Assembly (NCBI RefSeq): GCF_001046875.1
Contig: NZ_HF571038.1
Span: 1 to 64,000 of the forward strand
DNA: 64,000 bases
Reading direction: 5' to 3'
Source: Nostocoides jenkinsii Ben 74
GTDB taxonomy: Bacteria > Actinomycetota > Actinomycetes > Actinomycetales > Dermatophilaceae
Shown: positions 39,521-64,000 of the stretch, piece after piece
Position numbering within the stretch: the stretch's first letter is position 1
Layout: every line of letters begins with the position of its first letter
Notes under the pieces: model-generated
Told to the model about the DNA's origin: nothing
Database searches by the model: none
What the model saw: only the letters and a program-made list of their open reading frames with translations
Made by a program: the position numbers and the translations under genes

Positions 39521-42079
39521 TCAGGCGAGCGTGAGCGTGTCCCCGGCGGCGTCGAGACCGACCGTGACGGTGTCGCCATCGCGGACCTGGCCGGCGAGGA
39601 CCGCGCGGGCCAGCCGGTCGCCGATCTCGCGCTGCACCAGGCGGCGAAGGGGGCGAGCGCCATACGCCGGGTCGTAGCCGGTCTTGGCCAGCCAGTCGCG
39701 GGCAGCGTCGGTGACGTCGAGGGTGATGCGCCGGTCGCGCAGGCGGGTCGCCAGCTGGCGCACCTGCAGGTCGACGATGTGCGCCAACTCGTCCTGGCTC
39801 AGGGCGTCGAAGAGGATGACGTCATCGAGCCGGTTGAGGAACTCCGGTTTGAAGGCGGCGCGGACGCTCGACATGACGGCGTCCTTCTTCTGCTCCTGCG
39901 ACAGGGTCGGGTCGATGAGGAACTGGCTGCCGATATTGGAGGTCAGCACGAGGATGACATTGCGGAAATCCACCGTGCGGCCCTGCCCGTCGGTCAGGCG
40001 CCCGTCGTCGAGCACCTGCAGCAGGATGTCGAAGGTCTCCGGGTGCGCCTTCTCCACCTCATCCAGCAAGACCACGCTGTATGGCCGTCGGCGCACCGCC
40101 TCGGTCAGCTGCCCGCCCTCGTCGTACCCGACATAGCCGGGGGGCGCGCCGATGAGGCGCGCGACGGCGTGCCGCTCGGCATACTCGCTCATGTCGATGC
40201 GGACCATGGCGCGCTCGTCGTCAAAGAGGAAGTCCGCCAACGACTTGGCGAGCTCGGTCTTGCCGACACCGGTCGGGCCGAGGAAGAGGAAGGAGCCGGT
40301 CGGGCGGTCGGGATCGGCGAGGCCGGCCCGGCTGCGGCGCACCGCATCGGAGACCGCCTGTACGGCGCCGCCCTGGCCGATCAGGCGCGCGCCGATGATC
40401 GACTCCATCGACAGCAGCTTCTCGGTCTCGCCTTGAAGGAGCCGACCTGCGGGGATGCCGGTCCACGCGGAGATGACCTCGGCGATGTCGTCGGGGCCAA
40501 CGCGCTCCTTGACCATCAAATCCGCTGTGCCACGGGCGATCTCGTCCTCATTGGCCTTGGCGAGGTCCTTCTCGAGGGCGGGAATCTCGCCATACATCAG
40601 CCGCGACGCCTGCTCGTAGTTGCCCTCCCGCTGCAGCCGCTCGGCCTGCGTGCGCAGGTCGTCGAGGCGAACCTTGAGGTCACCGACCTTGTTGAGGCCA
40701 GACTTCTCTGCCTCCCAACGGGATTCGAGGGCGCCCAACTCCTCGGTGGAGTCGGCGAGGTCCTTGCGCAGCTTGGCCAGCCGCTCCTTGGAGGCGTCGT
40801 CAGTCTCGCGGGCGAGGTGGAGTTCTTCCATCTTCATCCGGTCGACGGACCGCCGTAGCTGGTCGATCTCGACCGGGCTGGAGTCGATCTCCATCCGCAG
40901 GCGTGAGGCCGCCTCGTCGACGAGGTCGATGGCCTTGTCCGGCAGTTGCCGGCCGCTGATGTAGCGGTCGGACAGCGAGGCCGCGGCCACGAGGGCGCTG
41001 TCCTCGATCTCGACCTTGTGGTGCGCTTCGTAGCGTTCCTTCAGGCCGCGCAGGATCGCGATGGTGTCTTCGACGCTCGGCTCGCCGACGAAGACCTGCT
41101 GGAAGCGGCGCTCCAGGGCGGGGTCTTTCTCGATGTGCTTGCGGTATTCGTCGAGAGTCGTCGCGCCGACAAGCCGCAGCTCGCCGCGGGCGAGGAGCGG
41201 CTTGAGCATGTTGCCCGCGTCCATCGCGCCTTCGCCAGTGGCCCCTGCGCCGACGACGGTGTGCAGTTCGTCGATGAAGGTGATGATCTGGCCGTCGCTG
41301 GCCTTGATCTCCTCCAGAACGGCCTTGAGCCGCTCCTCGAACTCGCCGCGATACTTCGCGCCAGCAACCATCGCCCCGAGGTCGAGGGAGAGAAGTCGCT
41401 TGTCCCGCAACGATTCCGGGACGTCACCGTCGACAATGCGCTGCGCTAGTCCTTCGACGACGGCGGTCTTGCCGACGCCGGGCTCGCCGATGAGGACGGG
41501 ATTGTTCTTGGTGCGCCGCGAGAGGACCTGGACGACGCGGCGGATCTCGGTGTCGCGGCCGATGACCGGGTCGAGCTTGCCGTCGCGGGCGGCCTGGGTC
41601 AGGTCGGTGGAGTATTTGTCGAGTGCCTCGCTGGTGGCATCCGGGTTCTCGGTCGTGACCTTCCGGCCGGCGCGCAGATGCTCGATCTGCGCCTCGACGG
41701 CCTTTGCGTCGACACCCTTGAGAGCACCTTTTTCGGCGAGCGCGAGGACCAGCGCGTCGACGGACATATAGGTGTCGCCCCACGCCTTCATCAGGGTGTC
41801 GGCCTGGTTGAGCACGGGCAGGACGGACTGGCCGAAGCCGGGTCCATTGCTCGATCCGCTGACCTTGGGCAGTTTGGCGATCTCGACGCGGGCGGCAGCG
41901 GCCACCGCCTCGGGGCTGGTGCCACCGGCGGCCAGCAGGGCGGGCACGGTGGTCTCGGGCACCTCGACCGCGGCCAGCGCCAGGTGGGCAGGGGTGATCT
42001 CGGGATTGCCGGCCGTCTGGGCCGAACGCTGGGCGATCGCCAGGATCTCGGCAACCTTGGTGGTCGGCTTGAGTTCCAT
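39521..42079 (-). CDS. clpB: ATP-dependent disaggregase ClpB
   Basis: An 852-residue AAA+ chaperone that, with DnaK, extracts proteins from aggregates. The order is: N-domain (1-145), first ATPase with [15 protein letters not shown], a coiled-coil middle domain (about 395-520, with [20 protein letters not shown]), and a second ATPase with [15 protein letters not shown]. There is no ClpP-binding loop evident. AAAGGAG precedes the ATG at 42079. A HAIR-like operator at 42137-42157 upstream matches that of dnaK, so HspR probably controls both. It is divergent from the GAF regulator. Confidence 0.95.
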
Positions 42080-42136: not shown

Positions 42137-42157
42137 GTTGAGTCTATTCCGCTCAAG
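42137..42157. promoter_or_regulatory. HAIR-like HspR operator upstream of clpB
   Basis: GTTGAGT-CTATTCC-GCTCAAG (42137-42157) matches the HspR consensus CTTGAGT-N7-ACTCAAG with one mismatch in each arm and correct 7-bp spacing. It is about 58 bp upstream of the clpB start. An hspR gene is present in this window (55986-56432). Confidence 0.78.
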
Positions 42158-55985: not shown

Positions 55986-56432
55986 TCAGACGTCCAGGAT
56001 CGAGCGCGACCAGCGGACCAGTGCTTGAGACGTATGCTGCCTCGGCCGCTGCCCGGGCCGCATCATCACCGCGTCCCCGGCCGGGCCGACCGCAAAAATC
56101 CTACTGCCGGAGCTCATTTGGGCCGCCATGAGCGCCGCCGACAACTCCTCGACACGGCCGCGGAGGGCGTCGACCTGATTTTCCAGGGCGAGGATGCGAT
56201 GTATGCCCGCGAGGCTCACCCCCTCCTCCTGGGAGAGCCGCTGCACCTCCCGGAGTCGGGCAACATCGCGCGCCGAATAGCGGCGACCGCCGCCCTGCGT
56301 GCGTGAAGGGGTGACGAGGCCAAGCCGGTCATACTGCCGGAGCGTCTGGGCGTGCATACCCGCGAGCTGAGCCGCGACCGAGATGACGAAGACCGGCGTC
56401 TCGTCGTCGGGGCCGAGACCGTGAACCGACAT
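55986..56432 (-). CDS. hspR: Heat-shock repressor HspR (MerR-like)
   Basis: A 148-residue MerR-family repressor. The helix-turn-helix reads VISVAAQLAGMHAQTLRQYDRLGLVTPSRTQGGGRRYSARDVARLREVQRLSQE, and a coiled-coil dimerisation helix and a variable tail follow. HspR binds HAIR elements with DnaK as co-repressor; free DnaK falls during heat shock and the genes are released. It is the last gene of dnaK-grpE-dnaJ-hspR, five bases after dnaJ, giving autoregulation. HAIR-like sites lie before dnaK (60048-60068) and clpB (42137-42157). Confidence 0.92.
   Translation of the reverse strand: MSVHGLGPDDETPVFVISVAAQLAGMHAQTLRQYDRLGLVTPSRTQGGGRRYSARDVARLREVQRLSQEEGVSLAGIHRILALENQVDALRGRVEELSAALMAAQMSSGSRIFAVGPAGDAVMMRPGQRPRQHTSQALVRWSRSILDV

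Positions 56433-58132: not shown

Positions 58133-58136
<4 letters not shown>
57537..58136 (-). CDS. grpE: GrpE nucleotide exchange factor
   Basis: A 199-residue co-chaperone releasing ADP from DnaK. A long acidic/Ala-rich N-terminus (about 1-60) precedes the coiled coil ([22 protein letters not shown]) and the beta-domain ([41 protein letters not shown]), which has the expected family text. The start is the GTG at 58136, overlapping the dnaK stop as GTGA. A 52-bp gap leads to dnaJ. Confidence 0.93.
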
Positions 58137-60025
<1,889 letters not shown>

Positions 60026-60047: not shown

Positions 60048-60068
60048 GTTGAGTTGCTTGCACTCAAG
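60048..60068. promoter_or_regulatory. HAIR-like HspR operator of dnaK
   Basis: GTTGAGT-TGCTTGC-ACTCAAG matches CTTGAGT-N7-ACTCAAG with one mismatch in the left arm. A transcript starting here would read dnaK on the minus strand; the operator is 23 bp from the ATG. Confidence 0.85.
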
Positions 60069-60109: not shown

Positions 60110-60130
60110 CTTGCGTCTGATTCACTCAAC
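60110..60130. promoter_or_regulatory. Second, degenerate HAIR-like site upstream of dnaK
   Basis: CTTGCGT-CTGATTC-ACTCAAC keeps the 7-bp spacing but has one mismatch per arm. It lies 42 bp upstream of the better site. Multiple HAIR copies occur in other actinobacterial dnaK promoters. Confidence 0.5.
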
Positions 60131-60204
60131 TCTTGTGGTCGGCCGATCATTCCCGCCCGCCTCTGCCCCCGAAGACCTCGGACTCTTGTAGGTTCTCGAT
60201 CTAC

Positions 60205-60260
60205 TTGTCGTTGTCTCACTTTCTTGTCGCAGGCGTGTCGTTGTCTCGCTAACTTGTCGC
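60205..60260 (+). repeat. Paired 26-bp direct repeats at the transposon left end
   Basis: Copies at 60205-60230 and 60235-60260 are identical at 22 of 26 positions, with a 4-bp gap and a 30-bp period. Both contain TGTCGTTGTCTC and end CTTGTCGC, so TTGTCG-type text occurs at each side of each unit. Their place directly before the transposase genes suggests TnsB-binding sites. Confidence 0.75.
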
Positions 60261-60264
60261 GCGG

Positions 60265-61044
60265 GTGGACGCTGGTCTCGTGGCCACGCAGCCGCGCGAG
60301 CGGATGGTCGAGTTCCGGTACACGTCCTTCATGGGCCAGGACGTGATCACGACGCTGAACTTGGCTCCGTCGGCGGAGGTGGCCCGGGGACTACCGGTTC
60401 GGTCCTTCCCCTCCTATGCGGGGATGGGGCACTACCCAGGTTGGTGGTGGTCCGCCACAGTGGGAGACCACGTGGGCTACGAGAGCCTGCTGGAGCGCGA
60501 CCGGCTGATGCTTGCCGACTTCGACCGTGACGTGGTGGCCATCGCGAGCCAGCCATTCGGCATCTCCGGTCGCGACGGCGATGCGCTACGTCGACACGTG
60601 CCGGACTACCTGCTGCTTCATCGCAACGGAACTGTGGAGGTCGTCGACGTCAAGCCTGCCGACATGTTGGACAAGCCCGATGTCGCGGTGGTTCTCGACT
60701 GGACTGGACGATTGCTGGCCGTACGCGGCTGGAGGTACTCGATCTGGTCGGGCGCGGATCCGATCGAACTGACGAACGTCCGCTTCCTCGCCCAGGGACG
60801 TCGCGCCCGGTTCGTCGATTCCGACGCGATGGCCACGCTGGCCCGTGCAGGTCGTCCTGGACGCACTCTCGGTGCAGCCCTGGCCGAGGCATCTCGGTCA
60901 CCCCACTCCAGTGCCACCCTGCGGGCGGCGCTCATCGCGCTGCTCTGGAAGCAGACGTGGCAGGTCGCGCTCGATCAGCCGATCGATATGAGCACCGAGA
61001 TCCGGACGATTCGAGAGGTCCATGACGAACAACGCTGTTCTTGA
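60265..61044 (+). CDS. TnsA-like transposon endonuclease
   Basis: A protein of 259 residues if the GTG at 60265 is used; a GTG at 60280 or ATG at 60304 is also possible, and 60265 is tight against the end repeats. The TnsA N-terminal nuclease fold is evident: Glu73 in GYESLLERDR, DFDRDVVAIASQPF, Asp114 in RHVPDYLLLH and Lys130 in VEVVDVKPAD. In Tn7, TnsA cleaves the 5' strands while TnsB cleaves 3' ends, giving cut-and-paste movement. The C-terminal part may form the TnsC-interacting helical domain. It overlaps the next gene by 23 bp. Confidence 0.85.
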   Translation: MDAGLVATQPRERMVEFRYTSFMGQDVITTLNLAPSAEVARGLPVRSFPSYAGMGHYPGWWWSATVGDHVGYESLLERDRLMLADFDRDVVAIASQPFGISGRDGDALRRHVPDYLLLHRNGTVEVVDVKPADMLDKPDVAVVLDWTGRLLAVRGWRYSIWSGADPIELTNVRFLAQGRRARFVDSDAMATLARAGRPGRTLGAALAEASRSPHSSATLRAALIALLWKQTWQVALDQPIDMSTEIRTIREVHDEQRCS

Positions 61045-63022
61045 GGTCCGCGTCGGCAGCCGGCTCTGGTTCGACGGGGAGGCGTGGTCGGTGTGCGAGG
61101 TCGACGCGACCACGGTGAGGCTGAACGCCGGCGACGGACGGTATCGCACGGTGACCGTGGCAGAGCTGATCGACACTGCAAGTCCCGCCGAGTCCGGGCA
61201 CCAACCGGACCCCGACGGGCTGCCCCTCCCGCGCAACGTCGCCTGGGCAAGTCTGTCGAGCAAGAAGAGGTCCAGCCTCGAGCGGGAGGTGACCGTCTTC
61301 AGCGTCCTGTTGGAGTCCGCGTTGGATGAGCAAGCAATTGCCATCCGGCGGGCGGCCGATGATCTCGGCGTTTCCATCCGTACCGTCCAGCGCAGGCTGC
61401 GCCGTTTCCAGCACCTCGGTCCGGAGGGTTTGATCGACGAACGTGTTCTCCAAGAGACCCGGCGTAGCGTGGATCCGCGCTGGGACGAGGCGTGCGTCGC
61501 GATCCTGCACGAATACGTCAACCGGTCGACACCGTCGAAGCAGACGGTCATCAGCCGGGCAACGAAGGCGTTCCTGCGCGAGGTGCCCGACGGAAAGCCA
61601 CCGACCCGGGCAGTGGCGTATCGGCGAGTCGTCGAGCTCGACGCGGGCAAGTACACGTTCAGCGACGCACCCCGGCGTCGATCCGTCGCGAAGCGGCCCC
61701 AGGGAGTCCTCGGTCAGCTTCGCCCGACCCGGCCAGGCGAATACGTCCTGATGGATGGATACAAGCTCGACGTCTTCGCGATGGAGCCGGTGACCATGCG
61801 CTGGGTCAACACCGAGCTGACGGTGGCGATGGACCTCTTTGACCGCTCGATCAAGGGAATCCGCCTGCGGCCGGTGGCAGCGAAGTCCGCGGATGTGGCC
61901 AGTGTCCTCCTCCAGTGCCTGACTCCGCAGCAGTGGGGCCGGGAGCCCAGCGCGCCAACTGGCCCCTACGCCGGTGTTCCCGAGAACGTGGTCCTCGGGT
62001 CGATCGGGGTCCTTCCCGACACCATCGTCATCGACCACGGCAACGTCTATATGTCCGAGCACACGCTCGGTTCCTGCCGTCGACTCGGAATCTCAGTCCA
62101 GCCCGCGATCCCCGACAAACCGACAGACAAGCCCGTCCTCGAGCGGTTCTTCCGGACGCTACGCCAATCACTGCTGGACAAGCTCAGCGGATACAAGGGG
62201 CCGAACATCGCTTCCCGCGGCAAGGACGTGGAGAAGGGCGCGTTCTACTTCGTCACCGAGCTTGAGCAGCTGATCAGGGAGTGGGTCGGCGACGTCTACC
62301 ACGTCAAGGCACACAAGGGATTGCGGGACCCACGCCTACCCGGCGTGGACCTCTCGCCCCAGGAGATGTTCAACCGCGGCATCGAGGTCTCCGGCCTGCT
62401 GCGACTCCCAACGCGCGAAGACCTGCGCTACGAGCTCATGGAGGTCCAGTGGCGCAAGATCAACCACTACGGCGTGGACATCGACACCCGTCGCTACGAC
62501 GGGCCCGCCCTCAACCCGTACCGAGGACACCGCTCGAACTACGGGGGAACTCACCCAGGGAAGTGGCCGATCCTGGTCGACGTCGACGACATCCGGACCG
62601 TCTACTTCCGGGACCCGGCCAACGACGCTTGGCATCCCTTGGAATGGCGTCTCGCCGTGGGAATCAACGCCCCATTCAGCAAGGACGCCGCCGACTACAC
62701 GCGGCGACTGACCATCCGAGAAAACCGGCACGTCGACCCGCAGCAAGCCGTCGAGGATCTGCTCGCCCGATGGACACGTGAAGAAGTGATGGGCCGTCGG
62801 GAACGCAACCTAGCGATCCGCATCGCCAGCATGCCCAGCTCGTTCGAGCCCGATTCCGACGTCAAACCCGAGGAACGGGCCTCGTTGCCTGGAGTGATCG
62901 ACCTGCTGAGCCGACGCCAGGAACACCGCCCTCAAGAACATCCCGACGACCTGGATGAGGTGTTCGAGCGCTACTACGCCGCCCAGCCCGACGCCGGCGG
63001 CTTCGACCTACTCGACGACTGA
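61022..63022 (+). CDS. TnsB/Mu-like DDE transposase
   Basis: A 666-residue recombinase. The N-terminal region has DNA-binding helices (SIRTVQRRLRRFQHLGPEGL). The integrase core carries Asp245 in VLMDGYKLDV, Asp338 in TIVIDHGNVYM and Glu374 in PVLERFFRTL; the last two are 35 residues apart, the classical DD(35)E spacing. A Mu-transposase C-terminal barrel (about 480-560, WRKINHYGVDIDTRRYD) and an acidic tail follow. It joins the 3' ends of the element to target DNA. ATG 61022 overlaps tnsA-like by 23 bp with GAGAGG upstream. All three catalytic residues are intact, so the element may be active. Confidence 0.9.
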   Translation: MTNNAVLEVRVGSRLWFDGEAWSVCEVDATTVRLNAGDGRYRTVTVAELIDTASPAESGHQPDPDGLPLPRNVAWASLSSKKRSSLEREVTVFSVLLESALDEQAIAIRRAADDLGVSIRTVQRRLRRFQHLGPEGLIDERVLQETRRSVDPRWDEACVAILHEYVNRSTPSKQTVISRATKAFLREVPDGKPPTRAVAYRRVVELDAGKYTFSDAPRRRSVAKRPQGVLGQLRPTRPGEYVLMDGYKLDVFAMEPVTMRWVNTELTVAMDLFDRSIKGIRLRPVAAKSADVASVLLQCLTPQQWGREPSAPTGPYAGVPENVVLGSIGVLPDTIVIDHGNVYMSEHTLGSCRRLGISVQPAIPDKPTDKPVLERFFRTLRQSLLDKLSGYKGPNIASRGKDVEKGAFYFVTELEQLIREWVGDVYHVKAHKGLRDPRLPGVDLSPQEMFNRGIEVSGLLRLPTREDLRYELMEVQWRKINHYGVDIDTRRYDGPALNPYRGHRSNYGGTHPGKWPILVDVDDIRTVYFRDPANDAWHPLEWRLAVGINAPFSKDAADYTRRLTIRENRHVDPQQAVEDLLARWTREEVMGRRERNLAIRIASMPSSFEPDSDVKPEERASLPGVIDLLSRRQEHRPQEHPDDLDEVFERYYAAQPDAGGFDLLDD

Positions 63023-63033
63023 CCGGGGGAGCA

Positions 63034-64000
63034 GTGACCAATCCGTGGGCCGCCTGGCTTCGCACCAACGATCGCCAGTCCTACGTGCTGGCCGACAAGG
63101 TCGGCTGGGACGCCTTCGTCAACTCTGGCCCGCGCGACCCCCTGCCGTCCCTGTCGCGAGATGAAATGGGCGCGCTGTCGGACGACGCTTTGGAGGACTA
63201 CAACGCAGCGCGTGCGGTGTGGCACGCCAACCCCGCCGCCGTCCGCACCACTCAGGTCGCGGCGGCCTACTCCGTCATCGACCAGGTCATGGCTGGCAAC
63301 CATCGCGACGGCGACCGACTCCGCGGAGCCGTGGTCATCGACTCTGAACCGGCACTGGGCAAGACCACCATCGCCACCCGCTACGGCAGGGACTTCCACC
63401 GGCGTATCTACCGGCGGTATGGGCCGACGACCGATACCGGATCCCAACGGTTGCCGGTCGTCTACGTGCCGCTCCGGAGCGCAACCACGCTCAAGGACCT
63501 GAACAAGCAGATCCTCAAGTTCTACCGGCACCCAGCCGGCTCCCGAGACACCAAGGCCGATCTGGTCGCCCTGGTCGTCGACGCCGTCACCACTGGCGAG
63601 ACCCGTCTGATCATCATCGACGACCTTCACTTCGTTGACTACAGCCACCGTGACGGCAAGGCGGTCGCCAACCACCTGAAGGGGTTGGCCAACGCTCTAC
63701 CGGTGACGTTCATGTACACGGGGGTGGGCCTGCTGGGGCGGCGCTTCTTCACCGAAGGCACGCAAGGGAATCCCAAGTCCGTTGAGGTGGCCCAGATGGG
63801 TCGTCGGACCACACGCTGCGCTGTGGCCCCGTTCACGCTCTCGACCGACGCCGGATTCCGGGCCTGGGTCGACCTGCTTGCTGCCCTGCAGTCACAGCTC
63901 CTGCTGGCCGACGCCCCGCCCGATGTCCTCACCCGGCACGCCCGGGAGCTGTTCCGCCGCACACAGGGTCGCATCGGCTCACTGACCGGTCTGCTCGAGC
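63034..64000 (+). CDS. TnsC/TniB-like AAA+ ATPase (cut by window edge)
   Basis: At least 322 residues, without a stop before the window end. The GTG at 63034 follows GGGGGAG. The Walker A reads DSEPALGKTTIA (Lys110), a variant in which the first Gly is replaced by Ser; Walker B is RLIIIDDLHF (Asp196-Asp197). FMYTGVGLL may be sensor 1. In Tn7-like elements this ATPase forms the regulator that links target selectors to the TnsAB transposase. The ~75 residues before the AAA core are unusual and may contact other subunits. The next gene, just off the window, could be TniQ or TnsD. Confidence 0.82.
   Translation, partial: MTNPWAAWLRTNDRQSYVLADKVGWDAFVNSGPRDPLPSLSRDEMGALSDDALEDYNAARAVWHANPAAVRTTQVAAAYSVIDQVMAGNHRDGDRLRGAVVIDSEPALGKTTIATRYGRDFHRRIYRRYGPTTDTGSQRLPVVYVPLRSATTLKDLNKQILKFYRHPAGSRDTKADLVALVVDAVTTGETRLIIIDDLHFVDYSHRDGKAVANHLKGLANALPVTFMYTGVGLLGRRFFTEGTQGNPKSVEVAQMGRRTTRCAVAPFTLSTDAGFRAWVDLLAALQSQLLLADAPPDVLTRHARELFRRTQGRIGSLTGLLE

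Follow-up and report, generated by a model that had tools for sequence, protein, structure and literature searches.

Background

Tn7 is mobilized by TnsA, TnsB and TnsC and is directed by the selector TnsD to glmS, where it inserts in a fixed orientation with its tns-gene end beside the attachment gene. Its ends start with TGT and a 5-bp target duplication is formed. Transposons of the Tn5053/Tn402 type are defined by the set TniA-TniB-TniQ without TnsA. The window analyzed here comprises 64,000 nt of Nostocoides jenkinsii Ben 74 (contig NZ_HF571038.1, positions 1 to 64,000; genome of 3.81 Mb in one scaffold) and ends within a Tn7-like transposon that begins upstream of dnaK. Very probably, this element is a TnsABC-TniQ transposon whose long TniQ/TnsD directs insertion to heat-shock promoters controlled by the repressor HspR.

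With Tn7 the element shares a TnsA, a DDE transposase TnsB, an AAA+ ATPase TnsC and a TniQ/TnsD protein, together with TGT ends, the orientation relative to the attachment gene and, in relatives, the 5-bp duplication. The presence of TnsA rules out a Tn5053/Tn402 type. In contrast to Tn7, the site looks like a transcription-factor operator located upstream of promoters and used at several genes, no TnsE was noticed, and the C-terminal third of TniQ is without a clear fold match. Tn6022 likewise employs a dedicated selector, TnsF, plus TniQ for its chromosomal site (PMC10293859), but this site is the comM coding sequence and not an operator outside genes; no TnsF was noticed in the present element, although no search was aimed at it. 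In host phylum and gene content, and on those alone, the element can be likened to a second, Actinobacteria-dominated clade of Tn7-like transposons, of which no experimentally characterized member is reported by Benler et al. (2021, PMC8649781). In the main text of that study, the words dnaK and promoter are absent. A limited literature search turned up no earlier report that connects dnaK, HspR or its operator to Tn7-like elements.

Results

Distance between HspR operators and transposon ends

HspR acts via the HAIR box (consensus CTTGAGT-N7-ACTCAAG), and dnaK, lon and clpB are reported HAIR/HspR targets (PMC9775585, PMC6102357). Related elements were compared across genomes (G numbers; N. 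jenkinsii is G000) and loci (L numbers). Insertion sites were measured for 33 distinct insertions that had been selected as elements beside dnaK (28), lon (three) or clpB (two), and all loci of this set resolved to an end. The distance from the end of HAIR to the TGT of the element is 55.2 +/- 2.0 bp (range 51-61; 14 insertions at 55 bp and nine at 54 bp), a spread that is bounded by design because the end-picking script took an automatic end only if CTCAA[CG] was 45-66 bp away. A first automatic pass had given 54.5 +/- 2.3 bp (n = 32). The distance from the gene start to the TGT is 184 +/- 46 bp (range 90-305). The strict HAIR 21-mer is present in 31 of the 33 insertions, and in all 33 the element is located on the gene-distal side of a HAIR-type box and in the same orientation. 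The gene identities at the three lon sites (Micropruina and two Gordonia) and the two clpB sites (two Nesterenkonia) were confirmed by NCBIfam. Among the named loci described below, dnaK sites are also found in Georgenia, Brevibacterium, Cellulomonas, Isoptericola, Cellulosimicrobium, Mycolicibacter, Pseudokineococcus and Paraoerskovia.

Independently fixed ends yield an offset of 54-56 bp. The ends of the N. jenkinsii (56 bp) and Knoellia (54 bp) copies were set by their mutual identity, those of G500 and G543 (55 bp each) by a shared composite, and those of G531 (55 bp) and G596 (54 bp) by the 5-bp duplications CCCAG and TTTGC, respectively. In G074, which belongs to the same branch as the HAIR-site elements, a MaoC-like gene (assigned by reading the protein) is preceded by a half-HAIR, and the end of the element is 55 bp away from it.

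Distribution across the clade

A survey was based on the best 80 of 224 loci (the named loci), nine of which had too little upstream DNA for the HAIR test. A strict HAIR box within 450 bp ahead of tnsA was found at 21 of 32 testable clade loci vs none of 39 outside the clade (Fisher 2e-10, the rows not being independent). L188 was counted in the clade, though its short transposase reading frame kept it off the tree. The 11 misses comprise L192 (near-consensus box, measured at 55 bp), L194 and L226 (both behind another element), seven Rhodococcus-type loci and L214; eight of them occupy other kinds of site, and in seven of these eight TniQ is short. In a TnsB tree of 90 rows, built by a quick method, all 29 HAIR-site elements included share one 43-row branch (SH-aLRT 100), in which the use of lon requires two changes and that of clpB another two.

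The Rhodococcus/Millisia subclade (L204, L206-L210, L213) is nested in the same TnsB clade, but differs in its short TniQ (reading frames of 216-314 aa) and in its varied sites without HAIR. It may represent a natural loss of site choice.

Within the host family, 17 of 22 loci with a clade transposase (small fragments left out) lie immediately upstream of dnaK and share a single orientation, with 11 genera among the first 16. The other five are the second copies of G530 and G500 and the G524 element, found in arrays behind dnaK, the G537 element, which abuts the end of another element, and the second G531 copy, located elsewhere; like the contig-edge loci L191 and L217, these five are outside the 33 measured insertions. 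A family-wide composite pattern matched 51 of 184 genomes. In 27 of these the match lies beside dnaK, as compared by hand from coordinates, including seven counted without a check for end repeats (G412, G421, G465, G474, G479, G511, G553) and G509, which lacks end repeats and is probably a chance match. The other 24 are close in number to the 19 genomes matched by a reversed control pattern.

Nature of the attachment site

The initial annotation had suggested a fixed attachment site beside dnaK, which is borne out by the constant side and near-constant offset of the 33 insertions; judged from sequence, however, the HspR operator looks a better description of the site than dnaK, as boxes of this type are also used by relatives at lon and clpB. 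It is very unlikely that dnaK or its 5' coding DNA is itself read, as glmS is by Tn7, with HAIR merely nearby. Most measured insertions are at dnaK, and the attachment sites of Tn7-like elements presented in PMC11406308 and PMC10293859 are conserved genes or tRNA genes, but the same clade also has members at lon and clpB, where the HAIR offset is much alike (51-58 bp), and the distance to the gene start is far more variable than that to HAIR. As sole target, dnaK is ruled out by these sites. A further candidate is GGGAA, a motif that reads TTCCC in the orientation of the window and resembles the -35 box of an extracytoplasmic function sigma factor. At most sites, TTCC is separated from the end by approximately 31-40 bp. 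It is displaced to 19 bp from the end in L202, where the HAIR offset is kept at 55 bp, and there is none between the half-HAIR and the end in G074. TTCCC as a ruler is weakened by both loci, and a reading of GGGAA instead of HAIR is very unlikely. Among the 30 loci shown, the empty dnaK promoters retain HAIR and mostly also TTCCC; both are therefore features of the host.

Alternatively, HspR bound at HAIR could be the landmark, with TniQ docking on the host repressor and not on DNA, which would tie transposition to the heat-shock state. This is rather unlikely, but several observations are consistent with it: all three target genes belong to the reported HspR targets, hspR is located within the same dnaK cluster in N. 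jenkinsii, and the C-terminal third of TniQ is without a clear fold match. On the other hand, TnsD of Tn7 is described as binding its attachment site itself (PMC10293859).

Several points weigh against the HspR operator as the targeting signal. In addition to the restricted range of automatic ends, five ends were set by eye (G521, L205, L211, L216, G515). Of the strict HAIR boxes in the own genome, three in total and all within the window, two are at dnaK and one, unoccupied, is at clpB; with five strand matches vs ten for a reversed control pattern, their number is no higher than the control, so only the box positions are informative. L214 has a TniQ of 577 aa yet no HAIR site, and none of the genes dnaK, lon and clpB adjoins the second G531 copy. 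As HAIR is near-palindromic, one-sided insertion requires a further asymmetric signal or selection. The helical C-terminal third of TniQ (191 residues, pLDDT 93) produced weak fold matches only (best Z 5.1). A second end and a 5-bp target duplication, both present in G531 and G596, were not demonstrated in N. jenkinsii, and flanks in the tandem arrays are mostly not exact duplications, with inexact pairs in G530, G500, G543 and G524.

In a model of the Knoellia TniQ (mean pLDDT 85.5), the first part matches TnsD/TniQ with a Z of about 10. The weak matches of TniQ include DtxR-, MarR- and DnaA-type helix-turn-helix proteins (the latter assigned by reading), and other folds are possible. A MerR/HspR-like fold was considered and rejected, as neither the full-length nor the C-terminal fold search returned a match titled HspR or MerR.

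For targeting to the HspR operator, we infer a sequence of steps from the comparison of sites and proteins. The C-terminal third of TniQ would recognize HAIR, directly or through bound HspR, and perhaps also the nearby GGGAA. TnsC would then assemble from the site marked by TniQ and set the offset, and TnsA/TnsB would move the element by cut-and-paste to a position immediately upstream of the promoter, presumably without damage to the heat-shock gene or its control. A similar offset is known from CRISPR-associated transposons, which insert 50-60 bp from the protospacer (Benler 2021, PMC8649781).

Boundaries and mobility

The copy in Knoellia remsis (G504) differs by two mismatches over 60187-64869 (99.96% identity, 4.7 kb). 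The identity starts exactly at TGTAGG (60187), the intergenic DNA on the dnaK side being different, and fades in the middle of tniQ. Judged by this identity with another genus, the element is foreign and recent. The initial annotation had taken the absence of GTATGCC as a sign of recent arrival, and the scarcity is real: 70 sites are found in the 60.2 kb before the element, two in its readable 10.1 kb and 66 in the 69.7 kb after it. Both sites of the element are past the window end, so that its window part has none. The nearest plasmid copies of the transposase, on plasmids of Rhodococcus, Gordonia and Nocardia, are 46-47% identical.

The N. jenkinsii tniQ equals that of Knoellia for approximately 264 codons and diverges from genome position 64870 (L002 4870): the target selector is a mosaic, and the cargo behind it differs as well.

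Kineosphaera limosa (G500) and G543, which belong to different genera, share a composite of approximately 29.5 kb and 31 kb, respectively, with pieces of 99.85-99.96% identity. It starts exactly at the TGT beside unlike dnaK flanks and holds further internal element ends. The elements of G531 (13,680 bp) and G596 (13,633 bp) are bounded by exact 5-bp duplications, CCCAG and TTTGC. In G530, G500 and G524, different elements form arrays behind dnaK, and their facing ends are separated by 5-15 bp. Within the genus of N. jenkinsii, G397 has no element at the corresponding place, and the one in G396 is reduced to its proximal end with tnsA and the beginning of tnsB. A stretch of 19 bp (L095 2828-2846), located between the HAIR box of dnaK and the G396 element, is identical to the outermost 19 bp of the G531 element, which suggests an earlier occupant and a new insertion positioned by distance rather than by local sequence. 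In Dermacoccus abyssi (G307, L072 7631-13269), a related element at dnaK, with tnsA interrupted by a stop and tniQ by a frameshift, is probably decaying; it is followed by a heavy-metal ATPase-like gene (by reading).

Genes, cargo and far end of the N. jenkinsii copy

The features of the locus are listed in Table 1. A heteromeric Tn7-like transposon beginning at 60187, with TnsA-, TnsB- and TnsC-like genes in order and overlapping or nearly so, had been proposed from the sequence; the open reading frames as well as the NCBIfam and Pfam families agree. The catalytic residues named there are conserved: E73, D114 and K130 of TnsA in 25 of 25 aligned rows, D338 and E374 of TnsB in 26 of 26, and D245 in 25 of 26, the remaining row having a gap. 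The Ser at the first Walker A position of TnsC is, as noted, a deviation in the N. jenkinsii copy and its Knoellia twin. Ala occupies this position in 23 of 26 rows and Gly in one, and GKT is kept in all 26, so the substitution is a clade feature and not damage. The end repeats, given there as 26 bp long, are a 30-bp tandem pair. The end at 60187 is the right end by the convention of PMC11406308, in which this is the end upstream of the tns genes.

Table 1 Features of the dnaK locus and of the transposon in the window
Feature	Position	Strand	Remarks
Right (gene-proximal) transposon end	60187..60265	+	TGTAGGTTCTCG and TnsB-site-like repeats (30-bp tandem pair 60206-60265); identity with Knoellia copy starts here
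5-bp flank ACTCT	60182..60186	.	candidate target-site duplication only, because the far end was not found
tnsA, nuclease subunit	60265..61044	+	NCBIfam TnsA_like_Actin, 216 bits (cut-off 110); E73/D114/K130 invariant, 25 rows
tnsB, DDE transposase	61022..63022	+	Pfam Mu-transpos_C; D245/D338/E374
tnsC, TniB-like AAA+ ATPase	63034..64000	+	Pfam TniB; stop at 64110, past the window
tniQ	64076-65806		outside the window; Pfam TniQ, 1.5e-16
HAIR box CTTGCGT-N7-ACTCAAC (HspR operator type)	60110..60130	+	proposed targeting signal; 56 bp from transposon end
Second HAIR box of dnaK promoter	60048..60068	+
TTCCC (GGGAA towards dnaK)	60150..60154	+	promoter-side motif; also in most empty dnaK sites shown
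dnaK	58133..60025	-	host gene with site in promoter; NCBIfam DnaK, 932 bits
hspR	55986..56432	-	host repressor of HAIR boxes; NCBIfam NF047375, 147 bits (cut-off 105)
Unoccupied HAIR box upstream of clpB (39521-42079, -)	42137..42157	.	predicted alternative site

As anticipated in the initial annotation, targeting and cargo genes continue beyond the window, where a TniQ/TnsD gene had been proposed as a check and is the next gene. It is followed, in order, by genes for a 125-aa protein, a DUF433 protein, a protein that weakly matches the alpha/beta-hydrolases, a pYEATS protein (families by Pfam) and a family-less protein of 187 aa, whose gene ends at 70008. Next come an IS256-type fragment, assigned from its protein by reading, and 100 consecutive N (70244-70343), and then chromosomal fur-like and glgX-like genes (assigned by reading). 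The expectation of defence genes or CRISPR targeting is unsupported: in the readable cargo, the DNA under the N run being unread, Pfam and PADLOC (six cargo proteins) revealed no CRISPR-associated gene and thus none of the Cas effectors of a CRISPR-associated transposon, and no PADLOC defence match was obtained for the six proteins. The cargo at 66271-70008, with its DUF433, weak hydrolase, pYEATS and family-less 187-aa proteins, is a possible undescribed conflict system.

For an intact copy, the far-end junction is expected to read ...CGAGAACCTACA followed by ACTCT. The far end was found neither when the proximal repeat was used to scan 60-140 kb nor in a search of the whole own genome with the distal-end consensus, in which the sole match was the proximal end of the element itself. 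The region upstream of fur showed only a rearranged region upon inspection. The N run may hide the far end, or insertion sequence activity may have removed it.

Elsewhere in the same genome, two stretches of 11,726 bp (G000:C1:3217474-3229199, L080, and 3547869-3559594, L081) are 100% identical, each directly after an N run. Both carry another Tn7-like set of TnsA, B, C and TniQ at approximately 26-34% identity.

Discussion

The element belongs to a known Tn7-like kind, and the operator-type attachment site at several genes of one regulon is the new part. With the repressor operator common to the regulon as the constant feature, several safe sites are available per genome, and targeting of the operator also fits the tandem arrays upstream of dnaK. 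The findings suggest that a target selector has evolved towards, or onto, a transcription-factor site. If docking on HspR were true, the choice of target, and perhaps its timing, would be coupled to the heat-shock state, and any HspR-regulated promoter would be a possible home. To our knowledge, there are few targeted tools for large inserts in actinobacteria; the near-constant offset from the HspR operator provides a testable insertion rule for this group.

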